This document shows positions 45,038-53,016 of a stretch of 64,000 nucleotides of DNA, piece by piece. Source of the stretch: an uncultured Lachnospiraceae bacterium. Lineage in GTDB: Bacteria; Bacillota; Clostridia; Lachnospirales; Lachnospiraceae. The notes below the pieces were generated by a model, which saw only the letters and a program-made list of their open reading frames with translations, made no database searches and had not been told where the DNA came from. The translations under genes were made by a program, and so were the position numbers. The DNA lies in assembly GCA_902789735.1 (NCBI GenBank), contig CADAOZ010000009.1:1-64000 (forward strand), given 5' to 3'. How positions within the stretch are numbered: the first letter of the stretch is position 1; each line of letters opens with the position of its first letter.

Positions 45038-45087
45038 TTTATTCATCACATCAAGATCCGGCATTGTCCGGAGAGGGGAGTACGTAT

Positions 45088-47598
45088 ATGAAATTCGGTT
45101 TTTTTGACGACGCGCGCCGTGAATATGTGATCACGACACCCAGGACCCCGCTTCCCTGGATCAATTATCTGGGAAACAGGGACTTTTTCAGCCTGATCTC
45201 CAATACCTGCGGCGGTTATTCTTTTTATAAGGACGCCCGCCTGCTGCGGATCACACGTTACCGCTATAATGATCAGCCTTATGACACCAACGGCAAATAT
45301 ATCTATATTAAAGAAGGAAACAATATCTGGAATCCCGGCTGGCAGCCCACCAAGACAGAGCTGGACAGCTATGAGTGCCGCCACGGCATGGGCTACAGCT
45401 GTTTTACCGGTGCAAAGAACGGGATTGAAGCCAGCCTGCTGAACATGGTCCCCCTGAACGACGCCTGCGAGCTGATGCTGCTCAGGGTCTCCAACAAGTC
45501 CGGGGAAGCCAGAAAAGTCCAGGTATTCCCTTATGTGGAATGGTGCCTGTGGGACGCGGATGACGACCAGAAGAACTTCCAGCGGAATCTGTCCACCGGC
45601 GAGGTCGAGATCGAGACCAATCTGGGTTATGAGATCTCCGGTCTCAGGAAACCCGAAAAGACTTCCATTGAGGATTACAGCAGCCTTCCTTACGCTGCCA
45701 TCTATCATCGCACCGAGTACAGAGAACGCCGCGCCCATTACGCTGTCTTCTCGGTCAACACACCTGTCAGCGGATTCGAGACGGACCGCCGGACCTTTAT
45801 CGGCGATTACCGCAGCCCGCAGCTGCCCCAGGCCGTGGAAAACGGCGCCTGCGCCAATTCCGTAGCCAGCGGCTGGTCTCCCTGCGCTGTCTTCCAGATC
45901 GATCTGGACCTGCAGCCCGGTGAGGAAAAAGAGCTGGTATTCGTCCTTTCCTACATCGAAAATCCCGTGGAGGAAAAATGGGAATCCTATGGCGTCATCA
46001 ACAAGACCCGGGCGAGAGAAGTCATCGCCAGATACAGTACCGCGGACGCGGTACGCGCTGCTTATGATGAACTCCGTGCCTACTGGGATGACCTTTTCTC
46101 CAAGTACCATGTGACCAGTTCCCATCCCGAAATCGACCGTATGGTCAATATCTGGAACCAGTATCAGTGTATGGTCACCTTCAATATGTCCCGGTCGGCT
46201 TCCTATTATGAGTCCGGTATCGGCAGGGGCATGGGCTTCCGTGATTCCTGTCAGGATCTGCTGGGCTTTGTCCACCTGATCCCCGAAAGAGCCAGGGAGA
46301 GAATCATTGACATCGCTTCCACCCAGTTCCCGGACGGCAGCGCTTATCATCAGTACCAGCCCCTGACCAAGAAGGGCAACGCGGATATCGGCAGCGGCTT
46401 CAATGACGATCCGCTCTGGCTGATCGCCGCCACCAGTGCCTATATCCGTGAGACGGGCGACGAGACCATCCTGGACGAAATGGTCCCCTTCGACAACGAT
46501 ATGTCCATCGCGAAGCCTCTTATGGAGCATCTGCGCAGAAGCATCAATTACACGATCACCCACAAGGGCCCCCATAAACTGCCCCTGATCGGACGCGCGG
46601 ACTGGAACGACTGCCTGAACCTGAACTGCTTCTCCGAGCATTCCGGCGAATCTTTCCAGACTTCAGGTCCCAGCGAAGGGCCTGTGGCTGAATCTGTCTT
46701 CATCGCGGGCATGTTCGTCAAATACGCTCAGGAATACGCCGATCTGTGCGGGCTCAAGGGCCTGACAGACGAAGCGGCCGCGGTTCTTGCCGAGAAGAAG
46801 GCTATGGAAGAAGCCATTCTCACGGACGGCTGGGACGGCAAATGGTTCCTGCGTGCCTACGACGCCTTCAGCAACAAGGTAGGTTCCGAGGAGTGTGAAG
46901 AAGGCAAGATCTTCATCGAGCCCCAGGGCTTCTGTGTCCTGGCCGGCGTCGGCGTGGAGACCGGTGAAGCCGAAAAAGCCCTGGACAGCGTAAAGGAAAA
47001 ACTGGACACCAAATACGGCATCATGCTCAACCAGCCCACCTATACCAGATATCACGTCGAGCTGGGCGAGATTTCCTCCTATCCTCCGGGATATAAGGAG
47101 AACGGCGGTATCTTCTGCCACAACAATCCCTGGGTCTCCATCGCGGAAACTGTCATCGGACGCGGCAGCCGCGCGTTTGAGGTTTACTGGAAGACCGCTC
47201 CTTCCTGTGTTGAGGAATTCAGCGAGATCCATAAGACCGAGCCCTATGTCTACTCACAGATGGTCGCGGGCGCGGACGCTCCCCATCATGGCGAAGGCAA
47301 GAACAGCTGGCTGACCGGTACCGCAGCCTGGACCTTTACGGATATCTCCCAGTACATCCTGGGCGTCTATCCTACCCTGAAAGGCCTGTCTGTCAATCCC
47401 TGCATCCCCGGTGATTTCGGTGATTTTGACCTGGTCAGAAAGTATCGCGAAGGCACCTACAGGATCCATGTTTCCAACCCGGATCATGTTGAAAAGGGCG
47501 TTGCCTACATCACGGTAGACGGCGAAAAGATGGACGGCTGTGTCATCCCTTATATCAAGGGCAAGACCGACTATCAGGTCGAGATCGTTATGGGCTGA
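45088..47598 (+). CDS. Cellobiose phosphorylase (GH94)
   Basis: Splits cellobiose with inorganic phosphate into glucose-1-phosphate and glucose in the cytosol, saving one ATP. From ATG 45088 (GAGGGGAG 7 nt upstream) it is 836 aa. It starts [20 protein letters not shown] like clostridial cellobiose phosphorylases; [35 protein letters not shown] and FNDDPLWL (438-445, holding the catalytic acid Asp) are intact, as are [14 protein letters not shown] and [17 protein letters not shown]'-diacetylchitobiose phosphorylase is a close relative but the N-terminus and LADW-like region fit cellobiose better. It is controlled by the adjacent LacI protein and ends at a very long bidirectional terminator. 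Confidence 0.93.
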
Positions 47599-47737: not shown

Positions 47738-50700
47738 TTAAATGGCCCGTACGGTCACCTCGAAGTGAAGGGGAGCAGATACATCCAGCAGGTATTCCTC
47801 ATGGGTCCTGGCGCCCCAGCTGTCGTCACCGCCGACACCCATCTGTTTCAGGCTGCAGCGGACGATGGTATGGAAGACCGGCGGCAGCTCGCCCGGATGG
47901 GAAGCGGCTTCCAGTTCTTCGGGCGTGTAAGGGATCGCTGAAAAATCCATTCCGTCCGGAAGGCTGCTCTCAAACCTGTATCCCCGGCCCGGACGGTCGG
48001 TCACCTCGGCCCACCTGACCCCGGTCCTGTTCCCGGTCTCCTGAGGAACCAGGTAAGCCTCCATGTTCTCCGCGGCCGTACGGCTGTACACGCCCAGCTT
48101 CGCCCCACGGCTCCTGTCACAATAGTTCTCTTCCGGTCCCATCCCGTACCATTTCACCTGGTCATAGTCCGCGTTCAGCGTGAACAGGAAACCGAATTCG
48201 GGCATTTCCGACAGCCCCGGTATCGGGTCATAGTCCATGATGAAGGTAATGGCGCCGTCCGCCAGGAAGCGGTAGGTCACGATGGCCGACGCGGCGGGCG
48301 CTGTCGGCAGCAGATATTTCATGATGATCTCTGCCTGCCCCTTCTTTTCTTTGATCTGAGGCCAGAGCTCCGCGTTATGATCCGCTTCCGCTGCGTGTTC
48401 CGGCGCTGTAATGGCCGGAAGGGCGTAGAGACTGGCCAGCTTCCACTGACCGTATCTGGCTGCCATGGCATTGCCCGTGTCATTGCTGACAGGCGCCCGC
48501 CAGAAGTTCATACGGGGCATCTTTTCGATCAGTTCTCTGCCGCCGGCCCTCCAGGAAGCGAGTCCGCCCCGCAGCAGGGAGAAGAGGGCATCACTGGTCT
48601 TCCCCCGGATCCCGATGTTAAAGTCACCATGGATCAGCTCAAGCCGGGCGGGCGCCGGCAAGACGGGATACGCAGGTCCGGGACTTCCCGTGACCGTAAA
48701 GACACGCTGGTCAAAAGCAACTTCATGCCCCGCGCCGGCCCAGGCGGTATCCTGCCGCAGCCGGAAGCTGACCGTCAGGACATACTCACCGTCCGTCAGG
48801 GGCGGCAGGACCGGCATGGCAAGCTCCTGTTCGGAAAGGGGTGCCGCTGCCGTAGCCAGGCTGTATTCCGCCAGCCGGCATCCTTCTTTCTCCAGCAGGA
48901 GGACGCAGTCCAGCTCCTCCGTATTCGTGAACAGGTTCTGATTGCGGATCAGGATCCTGTCTTCCGTTATTTCGGCCCGGATATTCTGGTAATTGTATCT
49001 GACCTCCTGCATCTTGGCATAAGGGCGGCGGGTCCCGTCCACAATGCCGTTGCCGCTGAAGTCATAATCGGTGGGCCGCTCTCCGCTGTCCCCGCCATAG
49101 GCCTGGAACTCTTTGCCGTAACGGTCCTTTCTGCGAAGAGACTGATCCACAAAATCCCAGATGAAACCGCCCTGGTAACGGGGCTCCCGGTCAGCAAGAT
49201 CCGTGTATTTATGCATGCCGCCGTTGGAATTGCCCATGGCATGGGTATATTCACAGCAGATGAAAGGCTTTTCCGGATTCTCCCGCAGAAACGTTTCTAT
49301 GGAAGCGGCGGAAGGATACATCTGGCTTTCCATGTCACTGGTATCCGGATAAGACCTGTCATGGAAGATGCCTTCATAGTGGACCAGACGCTCCGGATCC
49401 AGCTGCCGGAAGCGCTGTGCCATCTCATGGATCACGCTGCCGCCGAAGGATTCATTGCCGCAGGACCAGATCAGGATGGCCGGATGGTTCTTGTCCCTCT
49501 GGTAACAGCTCTCGACCCTGTCCAGCAGCATGTCCTGCCATTCGATATGGTCACCGGGCAGGATCTCCGACCGGTCCTGGAGGCCGCTTTCATACAGGGC
49601 CCAGCTGCCATGGGCTTCCATATTGTTCTCGGCGATCATATAGATGCCGTACTCATCACAGATCCTGTACAGGGCGCTCCCGTTGGGATAATGGGAGGTC
49701 CTGACCGCGTTGATATTATTCCGCTTCATGGTGACCACATCCTGCAGGGCTTCCTCTCTGCCGATGGCCCGGCCCCTGTCGCAGGAAAACTCATGGCGGT
49801 TGACGCCCTTGAAGACGATCCGCTTCCCGTTCAGGCACATGATCCCGTTCTTCATTTCGAATCTGCGGAAGCCCACTTTCTGCAGGACCACCTCCTGCAG
49901 GCTGCCGCCCTGACTTCCGTCCTCTTTGTATACCTCCAGCCGCAGGTCATACAGGACCGGCTTTTCAGCGCTCCAGAGCAGAGGGCGGGATACCTTCCGG
50001 CCGATCCTTATGTTCTCTTCCGGGCCTTCCCCGTTCTCACCGGGTCGGAATTCACCTTCCAGGACAGAACTGCCGTCCAGGGACAGGGCATACCGGATCC
50101 TGCATCCGGCCCGTTCCCCCTGCAGCTCCAGCTCCGCGGTCAGGGTGCCGTCCGCGTTTTCATAAGATCCGTCCACCGCCTCAGGAACGGCCGTGATCTT
50201 CAGATCCCGTACATGGATCTCCGGGACCGTATATAAATAAACATCCCTGAAAATGCCGGAAAAACGGAAGAAGTCCTGATCTTCCAGCCAGCTGGACGCC
50301 GTCCACTTAAAGACCCGGACAGCCAGCTTGTTCTCACCCCTTCTGAGATAGGGCGTCAGATCGAATTCGGAAGGCGTAAAGCTGTCCTCACTGTAGCCCA
50401 CATAGCTGCCGTTCAGCCAGAGGGCAAATCCGCTCTCCACGCCCTGGAAGGAAATATAAACAGGCCTCCCCGCGAAGGCGGCCGGCAGACGGAAATATCT
50501 GACATAACTGGCCACCGGATTATAGCGTTCCGGTATCTGGTCGTGTCCGATCTCCTCGCGGCCGTCCCAGGGATACTGATAATTGACATAGGCAGGCCGG
50601 TCCCAGCCTTCCATCTGGATATGGGCCGGTACCCGGATTTCTTCCCAGTCGCTGCAGTCAAAGGAGACCTTTTCAAAGTCCCTGACTGCCCCCCGGTAAT

Positions 50701-51397
50701 TGGCGGCATAGGAAAATTTCCACAGGCCGTTGAGGGAACAGGTAAAGCCTGTATCCCCATGGTCCGAAGCGGCCGCGCTCCATTTTCCTGCCGGTGCCAG
50801 ATCCGGCCGGTAACAAAAATGGTCCGAATGGGCCGGCAGACGGTTTTCCTCAAAAATCTCCGGATTTTTGACGATGGAATAACTGAAGGCGGTATTTTTC
50901 TTCATCCTGCCGGTAAAGGCTTCAAAGTCGAACCGGCTGTCACCGAAATAACGGGCCGCGAACCGGGCCAGTTCCTCCCGGGCCGGCGTTACCGCCCGGG
51001 CGGCCAGATCGATCCCTGTCTTTCTTTCATAGTCCAGGCACTTCCTGCGGAAGCGGGACAGCGTCGTCTGCCCGAAAGGCCGGCGGTCCGTCCCTGTCGT
51101 GTGAAGGGCCGTCTGAAAGCGCATATCGAACATGGCCGCGTTTGTCAGTTCTTCATCGCTCAGTCCCATGAACCCCTTCAGCAGCAGAGCGCCGATCAGG
51201 ACATTGACGGGAACGTTGGGTTTAGAGGGGCCTTTGCGGAAGAGGACCGAAAATTCTGTTTCATCCAGTAAAGGAAAAATCTTATCTGCGAAATACCTGG
51301 CCCAGGATTTATCCAGGGCTTCCCGTTCCTTTTCGGAAAGCGGCAGCAGTGTTTCCCTCAAACCGATCTGTTCATAACTATTGCGCCGGAATGCCAT
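47738..51397 (-). CDS. Chimeric protein: IS1182-type transposase N-terminus fused to beta-galactosidase
   Basis: A 1219-aa open frame. Residues 1-164 are the N-terminal part of an IS1182-family transposase (FADKIFPLLDETEFSVLF, PVNVLIGALLLKGFMGLSDE, MFDMRFQTALHTTG), ending before its DDE domain. Residues 165 on are a complete GH2 LacZ starting MKKNTAFSYSIVKNPEIFEE, with VPAHIQMEGWDRPAYVNYQY, acid/base Glu649 (WSCGNESFGG) and nucleophile Glu716 (CCEYTHAMGNSNG), and a full C-terminal bgal small chain. The upstream ATG at 51397 has GGAGG 8 nt before it and an extended -10 promoter; the internal ATG at 50905 has no usable ribosome site. So LacZ is probably made only as the fusion. It hydrolyses lactose or beta-galactosides if folded. 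Confidence 0.88.
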   Translation of the reverse strand: MAFRRNSYEQIGLRETLLPLSEKEREALDKSWARYFADKIFPLLDETEFSVLFRKGPSKPNVPVNVLIGALLLKGFMGLSDEELTNAAMFDMRFQTALHTTGTDRRPFGQTTLSRFRRKCLDYERKTGIDLAARAVTPAREELARFAARYFGDSRFDFEAFTGRMKKNTAFSYSIVKNPEIFEENRLPAHSDHFCYRPDLAPAGKWSAAASDHGDTGFTCSLNGLWKFSYAANYRGAVRDFEKVSFDCSDWEEIRVPAHIQMEGWDRPAYVNYQYPWDGREEIGHDQIPERYNPVASYVRYFRLPAAFAGRPVYISFQGVESGFALWLNGSYVGYSEDSFTPSEFDLTPYLRRGENKLAVRVFKWTASSWLEDQDFFRFSGIFRDVYLYTVPEIHVRDLKITAVPEAVDGSYENADGTLTAELELQGERAGCRIRYALSLDGSSVLEGEFRPGENGEGPEENIRIGRKVSRPLLWSAEKPVLYDLRLEVYKEDGSQGGSLQEVVLQKVGFRRFEMKNGIMCLNGKRIVFKGVNRHEFSCDRGRAIGREEALQDVVTMKRNNINAVRTSHYPNGSALYRICDEYGIYMIAENNMEAHGSWALYESGLQDRSEILPGDHIEWQDMLLDRVESCYQRDKNHPAILIWSCGNESFGGSVIHEMAQRFRQLDPERLVHYEGIFHDRSYPDTSDMESQMYPSAASIETFLRENPEKPFICCEYTHAMGNSNGGMHKYTDLADREPRYQGGFIWDFVDQSLRRKDRYGKEFQAYGGDSGERPTDYDFSGNGIVDGTRRPYAKMQEVRYNYQNIRAEITEDRILIRNQNLFTNTEELDCVLLLEKEGCRLAEYSLATAAAPLSEQELAMPVLPPLTDGEYVLTVSFRLRQDTAWAGAGHEVAFDQRVFTVTGSPGPAYPVLPAPARLELIHGDFNIGIRGKTSDALFSLLRGGLASWRAGGRELIEKMPRMNFWRAPVSNDTGNAMAARYGQWKLASLYALPAITAPEHAAEADHNAELWPQIKEKKGQAEIIMKYLLPTAPAASAIVTYRFLADGAITFIMDYDPIPGLSEMPEFGFLFTLNADYDQVKWYGMGPEENYCDRSRGAKLGVYSRTAAENMEAYLVPQETGNRTGVRWAEVTDRPGRGYRFESSLPDGMDFSAIPYTPEELEAASHPGELPPVFHTIVRCSLKQMGVGGDDSWGARTHEEYLLDVSAPLHFEVTVRAI
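50906..51397 (-). mobile_element. Remnant of an IS1182-family transposase gene (5' part only)
   Basis: About 164 codons of transposase N-terminal domain (Pfam DUF772 type). The catalytic DDE part and the insertion-sequence ends are missing; the frame runs straight into lacZ. A full IS1182 transposase has roughly 500 residues, so two thirds are lost. Confidence 0.85.
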
Positions 51398-51457
51398 ATG
51401 CCGAACCTCCATCCTGCCTGATCCTGCAGTATTACTGTGGTATAAGTCTACTCATTC

Positions 51458-51466
51458 AGTATACCA
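51458..51466 (-). promoter_or_regulatory. Extended -10 promoter of the transposase-lacZ gene
   Basis: Minus-strand TGGTATACT (TG-n-TATACT, -10 at 51458-51463). No good -35 at 17 bp; the upstream is T-rich. A 5' leader of about 55 nt would carry the GGAGG site. The gap 51467-51686 shows no gene. Confidence 0.55.
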
Positions 51467-51990: not shown

Positions 51991-53016
51991 TTATCGTTCC
52001 AGTCCGGTCAGATACGCTTCCAGCATATCCAGCTCATCCCCGTAGATGCAGTGGGGTATAGTGCCGGCATGCACTGCCCTGCGGCATTCCTGCCAGTCCA
52101 TCCAGAGGACGGATTCCACTTCTTCCGGCTGCAGGACCAGGTCCTCCTCCCGGACAGGCTCCTGATAGATATAGACGCTGCTGAGCTCCCGGTCCCGGAA
52201 GGGAAGGCCGTGGAAGACGGCCTGATACTGGCCGCGGTGCTGGCCGACACAGATCAGCTGGTCCGGCTCCGCCATGATCCCCAGCTCCTCCCGCAGTTCC
52301 CTGCATGCGGCCGGCAGGGCGTCATCCCCCGCCTCTATATGTCCGGCTGCGGAAATATCATAACAGCCGGGATTGGAATCCTTGACCTGACTCCGCTTCT
52401 GCAGCAATACATCCCTGCCCCCGTCGGGCCTGTTCCGGAAAATCCAGATATGGACCGTGCCGTGCAGGCTGCCGTCCCTGTGGGCCACGCCCCGTTCCCG
52501 GACGATTCCGCTTTTGCTGCCGTTTTCCTCCAGGATATCGAACAGCTCCATGGGGCGGCCGTTCAGGGCCGCTTCCCGCAGGATTCCCTTTCCGTCATAG
52601 ACCAGCTTCAGGGAAAAGAAGGGGGCGTCTTCATCGATCAGGCGGAAGAATATCTTATCCCCTTCCCACAGATTCAGTTTCCAGACCCGGTCTATGTCCA
52701 CCCATTCCAGGACGCCCTCATCACAGGGAGCCGGTTCGCCCGTAAACCCGTCGGCCGTGAACAGGGACATATATTCCGTAACCCCGTCCCCGGATACAAA
52801 GGTCACCAGGCCCCTGTAGCGCCAGGAGGTCAGTTCATATCCTGTCTCTTCCCGGACTTCCCGCAGCAGACATTCCTCCGGACTCTCCTCCGCCTCAAAA
52901 TGGCCTCCGACGCCGATCCACTTATCCTTATTCACATCATTTTTCTTCACGACCCTGTGAAGCATTAAATATTCATGTCCCCGCTGTATATAGCAGAGCG
53001 TGCTCATTTCCGTCAC
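51991..53016 (-). CDS. Protein with two Nudix hydrolase domains
   Basis: A 341-aa fusion. Domain 1 (about 1-155) resembles clostridial MutT/8-oxo-dGTP diphosphatases and has a complete Nudix box at G38-Y60 (GX5EX7REVREETGY). Domain 2 (about 165-335) resembles isopentenyl-diphosphate isomerase-like Nudix proteins (HRDGSLHGTVHIWIF) with a box at G225-I247 in which the first Glu is Asp (GHIEAGDDALPAACRELREE, shown here as a 20-residue stretch). Both could be active. Start is GTG 53016 (GGAGG 12 nt upstream) or ATG 53007. Usually the two domains are separate genes. Confidence 0.87.
   Translation of the reverse strand: MTEMSTLCYIQRGHEYLMLHRVVKKNDVNKDKWIGVGGHFEAEESPEECLLREVREETGYELTSWRYRGLVTFVSGDGVTEYMSLFTADGFTGEPAPCDEGVLEWVDIDRVWKLNLWEGDKIFFRLIDEDAPFFSLKLVYDGKGILREAALNGRPMELFDILEENGSKSGIVRERGVAHRDGSLHGTVHIWIFRNRPDGGRDVLLQKRSQVKDSNPGCYDISAAGHIEAGDDALPAACRELREELGIMAEPDQLICVGQHRGQYQAVFHGLPFRDRELSSVYIYQEPVREEDLVLQPEEVESVLWMDWQECRRAVHAGTIPHCIYGDELDMLEAYLTGLER

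Follow-up and report, generated by a model that had tools for sequence, protein, structure and literature searches.

What the N-terminal domain of an insertion sequence (IS) transposase does in front of a beta-galactosidase, and how it came to be there, is the question raised by a gene in a stretch of 64,000 nucleotides (hereafter the window) from an uncultured Lachnospiraceae bacterium (GCA_902789735.1, contig CADAOZ010000009.1, positions 1 to 64,000; genome G000 in this analysis). A prediction made earlier from the letters alone (the original prediction) had described this gene as a transposase N-terminus fused in frame to a complete LacZ and had proposed looking for the same junction in related genomes, where it is indeed found: when a PF05598 search is combined with a first search by the N-terminal domain (N-domain), the DUF772-LacZ gene is present in 28 of the 62 genomes of the genus set. 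The N-domain is almost certainly a domesticated transposase domain under selection. The favoured reading, to which we assign a probability of roughly 0.5, is that an IS1182/IS5-type N-domain was joined to the 5' end of lacZ and was domesticated with a function beyond catalysis, most likely nucleic-acid binding.

The gene is a single open frame on the minus strand, read from 51397 to 47738, which encodes 1219 amino acids with no internal stop; a further in-frame ATG at 51412 would give 1224 codons. On the whole protein Pfam places DUF772 at residues 60-121 with the GH2/LacZ set downstream, and residues 1-164 alone match PF05598 (DUF772) with 36.5 bits against a cut-off of 23.1. The NCBIfam IS1182 transposase model matches residues 43-120 with 28.3 bits, far under its 270-bit cut-off because only the N-terminal end of a transposase is present, and neither Pfam nor NCBIfam reports a transposase catalytic domain in the protein. 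Residues 176-1217 match NF052611 (Bga2A/LacZ) with 1338.6 bits (cut-off 999) over positions 2-1005 of the 1007 in the profile, and both catalytic glutamates named in the original prediction are present, E649 in CGNES and E716 in CCEYTH. Among relatives with solved structures, phmmer puts 6sd0 and 6s6z first, ahead of E. coli LacZ entries (1dp0, for example). By these comparisons the score places the protein in LacZ, and its defining features are not those of a transposase.

Separate database comparison of the two parts therefore upholds the original prediction of a transposase N-domain fused in frame to a full LacZ at these coordinates. Its extent for the transposase part, about 164 residues, needs correction: the N-domain is homologous to free transposases, with 34 positions common to both at 75% or more, up to about residue 148, where the alignment ends, and residues from about 150 to 170 form a linker. 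IS copies in the same genome were considered as donors of the N-domain and were set aside, as the N-domain matches only once in the 2.51 Mb and 37 contigs of G000. The same genome also carries a second, distant LacZ-like gene (G000:C28:9222-12089, plus strand; 35% identity, 1028-amino-acid frame).

The first N-domain search covered 61 genomes, 37 of them of the same genus including that of the window, and matched 22; in 19 of these the matching frame exceeds 1000 amino acids, and all 19 frames also contain LacZ. PF05598 alone missed G015, which the N-domain query recovered, and PF05598 is found in 28 of 28 aligned fused N-domains. A profile search of the genus set matched 32 of the 62 genomes; the 28 fused genes, G014 and G071 account for the 30 that score at least 212 bits, above the 190 of the highest-scoring free transposase. 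The closest relative is the record of uncultured Lachnospiraceae bacterium RUG578, with an N-domain 99% identical to that of the window, and all the other fused N-domains are 38-99% identical to that of the window. Three of the 28 genes are truncated by contig ends (G066, G075 and G009). The acid/base glutamate is present in 26 (25 as GNE, and G069 as DNE) and the nucleophile in 26, both being missing only from G010, where they are deleted, and from G066, where they are cut off by the contig end. Five clade-D fusions (L045, L051, L056, L059 and L083) are 1422-1542 amino acids long and have long variable inserts in the linker and within LacZ, and G075 carries fused and unfused LacZ of the same type in one genome (L109 and L080).

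Outside the genus, no fusion was found in three overlapping samples of 392 (order), 397 (family) and 398 (phylum) genomes, where N-domain frames are at most 582 amino acids long, although at most nine candidates per genome were scored and one could have been missed. Since the genome of the window is a draft assembly of 37 contigs, an assembly chimera or a chance overlap of an IS fragment with lacZ could be suspected, but the same architecture recurs in 28 species, one of them represented by a 4-contig, 99% complete genome (G069). A chance overlap is excluded because the fusion is conserved in 28 species, and the probability of an artefact of either kind is negligible. A full-text search of one open-licence library found no paper naming both beta-galactosidase and DUF772.

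In the N-domain tree, the 28 fused N-domains and that of G014 form one clade against 14 free transposases (support 100/99, recovered in all of 200 bootstrap trees). An earlier, smaller tree with 19 fused and 5 free domains had given 88/94 support and 86% of bootstraps. The LacZ tree contained 27 fusions and 12 unfused relatives (9 from the genus and 3 from the order); LacZ trees were built without G066 (cut), G021, G028 (two pieces), G035 and G064 (short or split). It requires two changes between fused and unfused, most simply one gain and one loss. Species groups agree between the two trees: A (G000, G034, G020, G019, G084 and G085), B (G012 and G016), C and D. The loss would concern the clade of G006, G076 and G079, in which no trace of the N-domain was found in the L106 (G076) and L110 (G079) loci by profile or for L063 (G006) by genome search, and where secondary loss of the N-domain is likely. 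Taken together, the trees argue for a single origin of the fusion, most simply one gain, and for vertical descent without the element, although two gains from one IS lineage would be a less simple alternative.

Related IS are still present in some fused genomes. Two IS copies in G029 (L065 and L066) are 90% identical over 1910 bp, with an end repeat like GATGTTGGGGTCAAAA and a subterminal inverted repeat of 22-28 bases containing CCTTGAAAACTGAATATAGA. A scan for these two repeats covered the 800 bp upstream of the 28 genes and the repeats of this one related element; its best matches did not exceed what 50 shuffles each produced. A recent IS insertion is rejected, and the capture from an insertion sequence seen by the original prediction is not supported as a recent event, given the sharing of the fusion among 28 species, the single N-domain clade and the failure to find the G029 repeats in these upstream regions.

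The original prediction had also placed a native LacZ start at 50905 and had allowed that the added part might just be tolerated. The start M1 is invariant in all 28 genes, along with 19 other columns, whereas five, the window's included, have an ATG where M165 of the window (50905) aligns. The junction interval contains no ATG, GTG or TTG in 7 of the 28, and a ribosome-site match of at least 5 bases precedes a junction start in G083 only. Having no start codon at the junction, at least those seven genes could not give rise to a LacZ-only product there. M165 is thus not a conserved native start, and a LacZ start at 50905 as a rule is unlikely.

Selection was estimated as the ratio of nonsynonymous to synonymous divergence (dN to dS, omega) by the Nei-Gojobori method over the first 150 codons of 13 partly non-independent pairs. 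Omega of the N-domain is 0.015-0.30, with 0.015 for the window against G034 and 0.015-0.16 in 12 of the 13 pairs, and it is lower than LacZ omega in 11. In 7 of 10 computable pairs the linker has a higher omega than the N-domain, dS being saturated in the other three. These values indicate purifying selection on the N-domain.

A passive leader, in which an IS fragment supplied a promoter and a start and was kept only since LacZ would otherwise not be started, would suit the genes without a junction start codon, in which the 5' part cannot simply be dropped. It would also suit the clade-A leaders. The possible ribosome site GGAGG and the extended -10-like TGGTATACT do lie upstream of the window's gene as the original prediction stated (Table 1), and an TGGTATACT-like stretch is common to the clade-A leaders and the free G029 leader, while the leaders of other clades differ; TATACT occurs in the leaders of G034, G020, G019, G084 and G085 and in the free G029 elements. 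The window's TGGTATACT was not among the results of a sigma-70 scan. The stretch may be an inherited IS promoter or a common form of the -10 element, and promoter capture from an IS may apply to clade A only. A passive leader would be expected to drift, but N-domain omega is low in nearly all pairs, linker omega is higher in most of those computable, and the N-domain is intact after LacZ decay, which makes this explanation highly improbable.

That decay is seen in three genes. In G010, with a fused frame of 1359 amino acids, the TIM-barrel core with both catalytic motifs is deleted in frame, and Pfam still recognises the N-domain and further LacZ domains, but of the 302 barrel positions just 4-77. 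In G071, a frame of 326 amino acids comprises only the N-domain, the linker and a remnant of GH2 domain 2, which matches G010 over 119 residues at 37% identity (E 4e-21) and is not reported by Pfam; a separate unfused lacZ is present in this genome. G014 retains just the N-domain and linker (184 amino acids), located behind the NUDIX gene, and a search for LacZ in this genome, which is 87% complete, found nothing. The N-domains of the decayed genes contain no stop, and their omega is 0.045-0.084 when compared with four intact relatives and with each other. Between G010 and G071 the N-domain is 90% identical and GH2 domain 2 is 37% identical, compared with 86-99% and 54-89% in the six pairs of the four intact relatives. 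This pattern can be read as selection on the N-domain independent of catalysis, and the N-domain probably has a job of its own; mere tolerance is not supported, since the N-domain is in most pairs more strongly constrained than LacZ and persists where LacZ has decayed.

The decayed genes also bear on the idea that LacZ has retained the N-domain as a module for oligomerisation or solubility, which would set the multimer or stabilise the enzyme and make no contact with nucleic acid. E. coli LacZ tolerates N-terminal fusions well, all 28 fused genes carry the N-domain on the N-terminal side of LacZ, and M, Y, F, L, V or A occupies 9 of the 20 invariant columns, all of which would fit such a module. 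Its constraint persists, however, without the barrel core (G010), with one LacZ domain (G071) and without LacZ (G014), and G006, G076 and G079 have a full LacZ without it, so that such a module appears unlikely.

Binding of nucleic acid as part of a multimer is the presumed ancestral role of the N-domain in IS1182/IS5-type transposases, and from this parent family we infer DNA binding by the fused N-domain. That nucleic-acid binding is the function under selection is proposed tentatively, at slightly under even odds. Positions common to fusions and free transposases include R93, P107, S109, R115, F116, R117 and R119, which lie in and around predicted helices 92-99 and 110-127. The AlphaFold2 model of the N-domain, made from an alignment of 4 rows, is all-helical with a mean predicted local distance difference test score (pLDDT) of 73.6. 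Residues 1-17 have pLDDT below 50, yet Y8 and Q10 within them are invariant, for which reason a short linear motif is possible at the N-terminal end. The sole weak profile hit to a solved structure, an unrelated synthase component (E 0.0095), was rejected as a match for the N-domain. In other transposases a sliding-clamp motif, Q-L-x-L-F, is nearly always C-terminal according to a report that does not name IS1182 (PMC4549789). Some free transposases (G443 and G029) have an N-terminal Q-x-x-L/F stretch resembling this motif, with QLSLF- or QMSLF-like starts, and in the fusions, at residues 8-14 of the window's protein, Tyr8 and Gln10 are invariant, Leu or Phe occupies motif position 4 and position 5 is mostly lost.

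Several observations count against the favoured reading. R48, R59 and K74, which are basic and common in free transposases, are variable in the fusions; most members have an N-domain of near-neutral or slightly acidic charge, a property that the free domains share; and a Foldseek search of the PDB gave no match at E 0.001 or better (best 1.2). The clade of G006, G076 and G079, nested among fused genes, keeps full LacZ without the N-domain, and in two of the 13 pairs N-domain omega is not the lower (0.160 against 0.158 for LacZ in G029/G077, and 0.296 against 0.221 in G069/G075). Mean dN between decayed and intact N-domains is 0.092-0.105, compared with 0.010-0.082 among intact ones, and G071 has His at the otherwise invariant R117, a single change at an invariant column. 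Recent loss of LacZ may explain why these N-domains are intact, and the three genomes concerned, all of one clade, are few. Upstream, the starts of six fused genes follow a NUDIX gene at a distance of 14-51 bp, and no operator-like motif common to the clade leaders was seen by eye in four clade alignments.

Of the 28 fused loci, 14, among them the window's, have a NUDIX relative in the upstream flank examined, as does G014. Because the upstream context differs between clades and no shared motif was seen, simple autoregulation at the adjacent promoter is unlikely; the N-domain might instead act on a regulatory target elsewhere or help to form multimers.

Binding could alternatively serve the host as a brake on transposition, with the N-domain-LacZ protein occupying IS1182-type ends or trapping transposase, as truncated transposases do elsewhere (Tn5 Inh and IS1 InsA). 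The 34 positions common with free transposases, the persistence of related IS in some fused genomes (G029 and G027) and the possible sufficiency of a lone N-domain such as that of G014 would be compatible with this. Fewer IS in fused genomes were, however, not seen, with 24 further DUF772 matches in the 28 fused genomes and 18 in the 34 others in a hand count without a statistical test; the variability of R48, R59 and K74 and the arbitrary choice of LacZ as partner also speak against a brake, which is a decidedly improbable explanation. In mobile element collections, the N-domain matches 7 plasmid records (6 annotated as transposase and 1 unannotated) and 1 unannotated phage record.

In the favoured reading, the N-domain of an IS1182/IS5-type transposase would have been joined to the 5' end of lacZ, most simply once, in an ancestor within the genus, and the joint protein would have been inherited ever since. 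The N-domain would have a function without need of beta-galactosidase catalysis, most likely its ancestral nucleic-acid binding in a multimer, while the LacZ half is predicted to form a stable oligomer that, where intact, hydrolyses or senses galactosides. The whole protein is proposed to act as a DNA-anchored enzyme or 'trigger enzyme', with the decayed forms as relatives in which the binding half was retained. A more speculative and rather doubtful extension is that the transposase domain made LacZ a bifunctional DNA-binding enzyme and that the branch of G010, G071 and G014 is shedding the enzyme stepwise while the binding domain is still selected; if true, a natural, transposon-driven transition from enzyme to regulator would be caught in intermediate stages.

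Table 1. Features of the fused gene and its upstream region (window coordinates)
Feature	Coordinates	Strand	Basis or remark
Fused gene: transposase N-domain, linker and LacZ, 1219 amino acids	47738..51397	-	start ATG 51397
DUF772/PF05598 transposase N-terminal domain, residues 1-155	50933..51397	-	PF05598, clade, omega
Interdomain linker, about residues 150-170, contains M165	50888..50950	-	
Complete LacZ, NF052611 Bga2A, GH2	47741..50887	-	NCBIfam, Pfam
E649 glutamate in CGNES	49451..49453	-	motif present; presumably acid/base, by analogy with E. coli E461
E716 glutamate in CCEYTH	49250..49252	-	motif present; presumably nucleophile, by analogy with E. coli E537
TGGTATACT, extended -10-like	51458..51466	-	upstream of fused gene
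GGAGG, possible ribosome site for ATG 51397	51406..51410	-	
NUDIX-domain gene	51991..53016	-	upstream of fused gene

On the other side of the fused gene, a GH94-type gene at 45064-47598 of the window (plus strand) is convergent with it.

Both parents of the fusion belong to known families, and the joint protein resembles host-transposase and enzyme-regulator fusions. It is like the IS1182/IS5-type DDE transposases in the homology of its PF05598 N-domain over residues 1 to about 148, and differs from them in having no catalytic domain, no G029 repeats upstream, a single copy in its own genome and a separate clade. It is like LacZ of NF052611 (beta_gal_Bga2A, GH2) in its complete domain set and both catalytic glutamates, activity being predicted from sequence, and differs in the extra N-domain of about 150 amino acids and in the three relatives with decayed LacZ. 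PutA is an example of the trigger-enzyme type; compared with trigger enzymes and enzyme-regulator fusions, the present protein has a transposase-derived domain, a LacZ body and putative DNA binding. The E. coli LacI-LacZ chimera, a laboratory product, carries a DNA-binding protein on the N-terminal end of LacZ with both parts working, but its repressor is not transposase-derived, unlike the N-domain of the fusion described here. TnpA-REP is not known to be fused to a metabolic enzyme, and host reuse of transposase domains by fusion to metabolic enzymes is, to our knowledge, little documented.

Here a single fusion, involving a textbook enzyme, has been conserved across 28 species, and both parents have free relatives that allow comparison. 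The clade without the N-domain and the three genes in which the enzyme decayed first make selection on each half directly testable, and function is testable because of the conservation, the apparent single origin and the decay series. With BzdR (PMC3602430), the likeness consists of an N-terminal domain of putative DNA-binding origin, a linker and an enzyme body able to lose catalysis. Recruitment of transposase parts by the host, as proposed here, is described for TnpA-REP (PMC8266576) and SETMAR/Metnase (PMC9062482, PMC4036204); SETMAR is a host-transposase fusion like this one, but it occurs in primates and has kept an altered catalytic domain.

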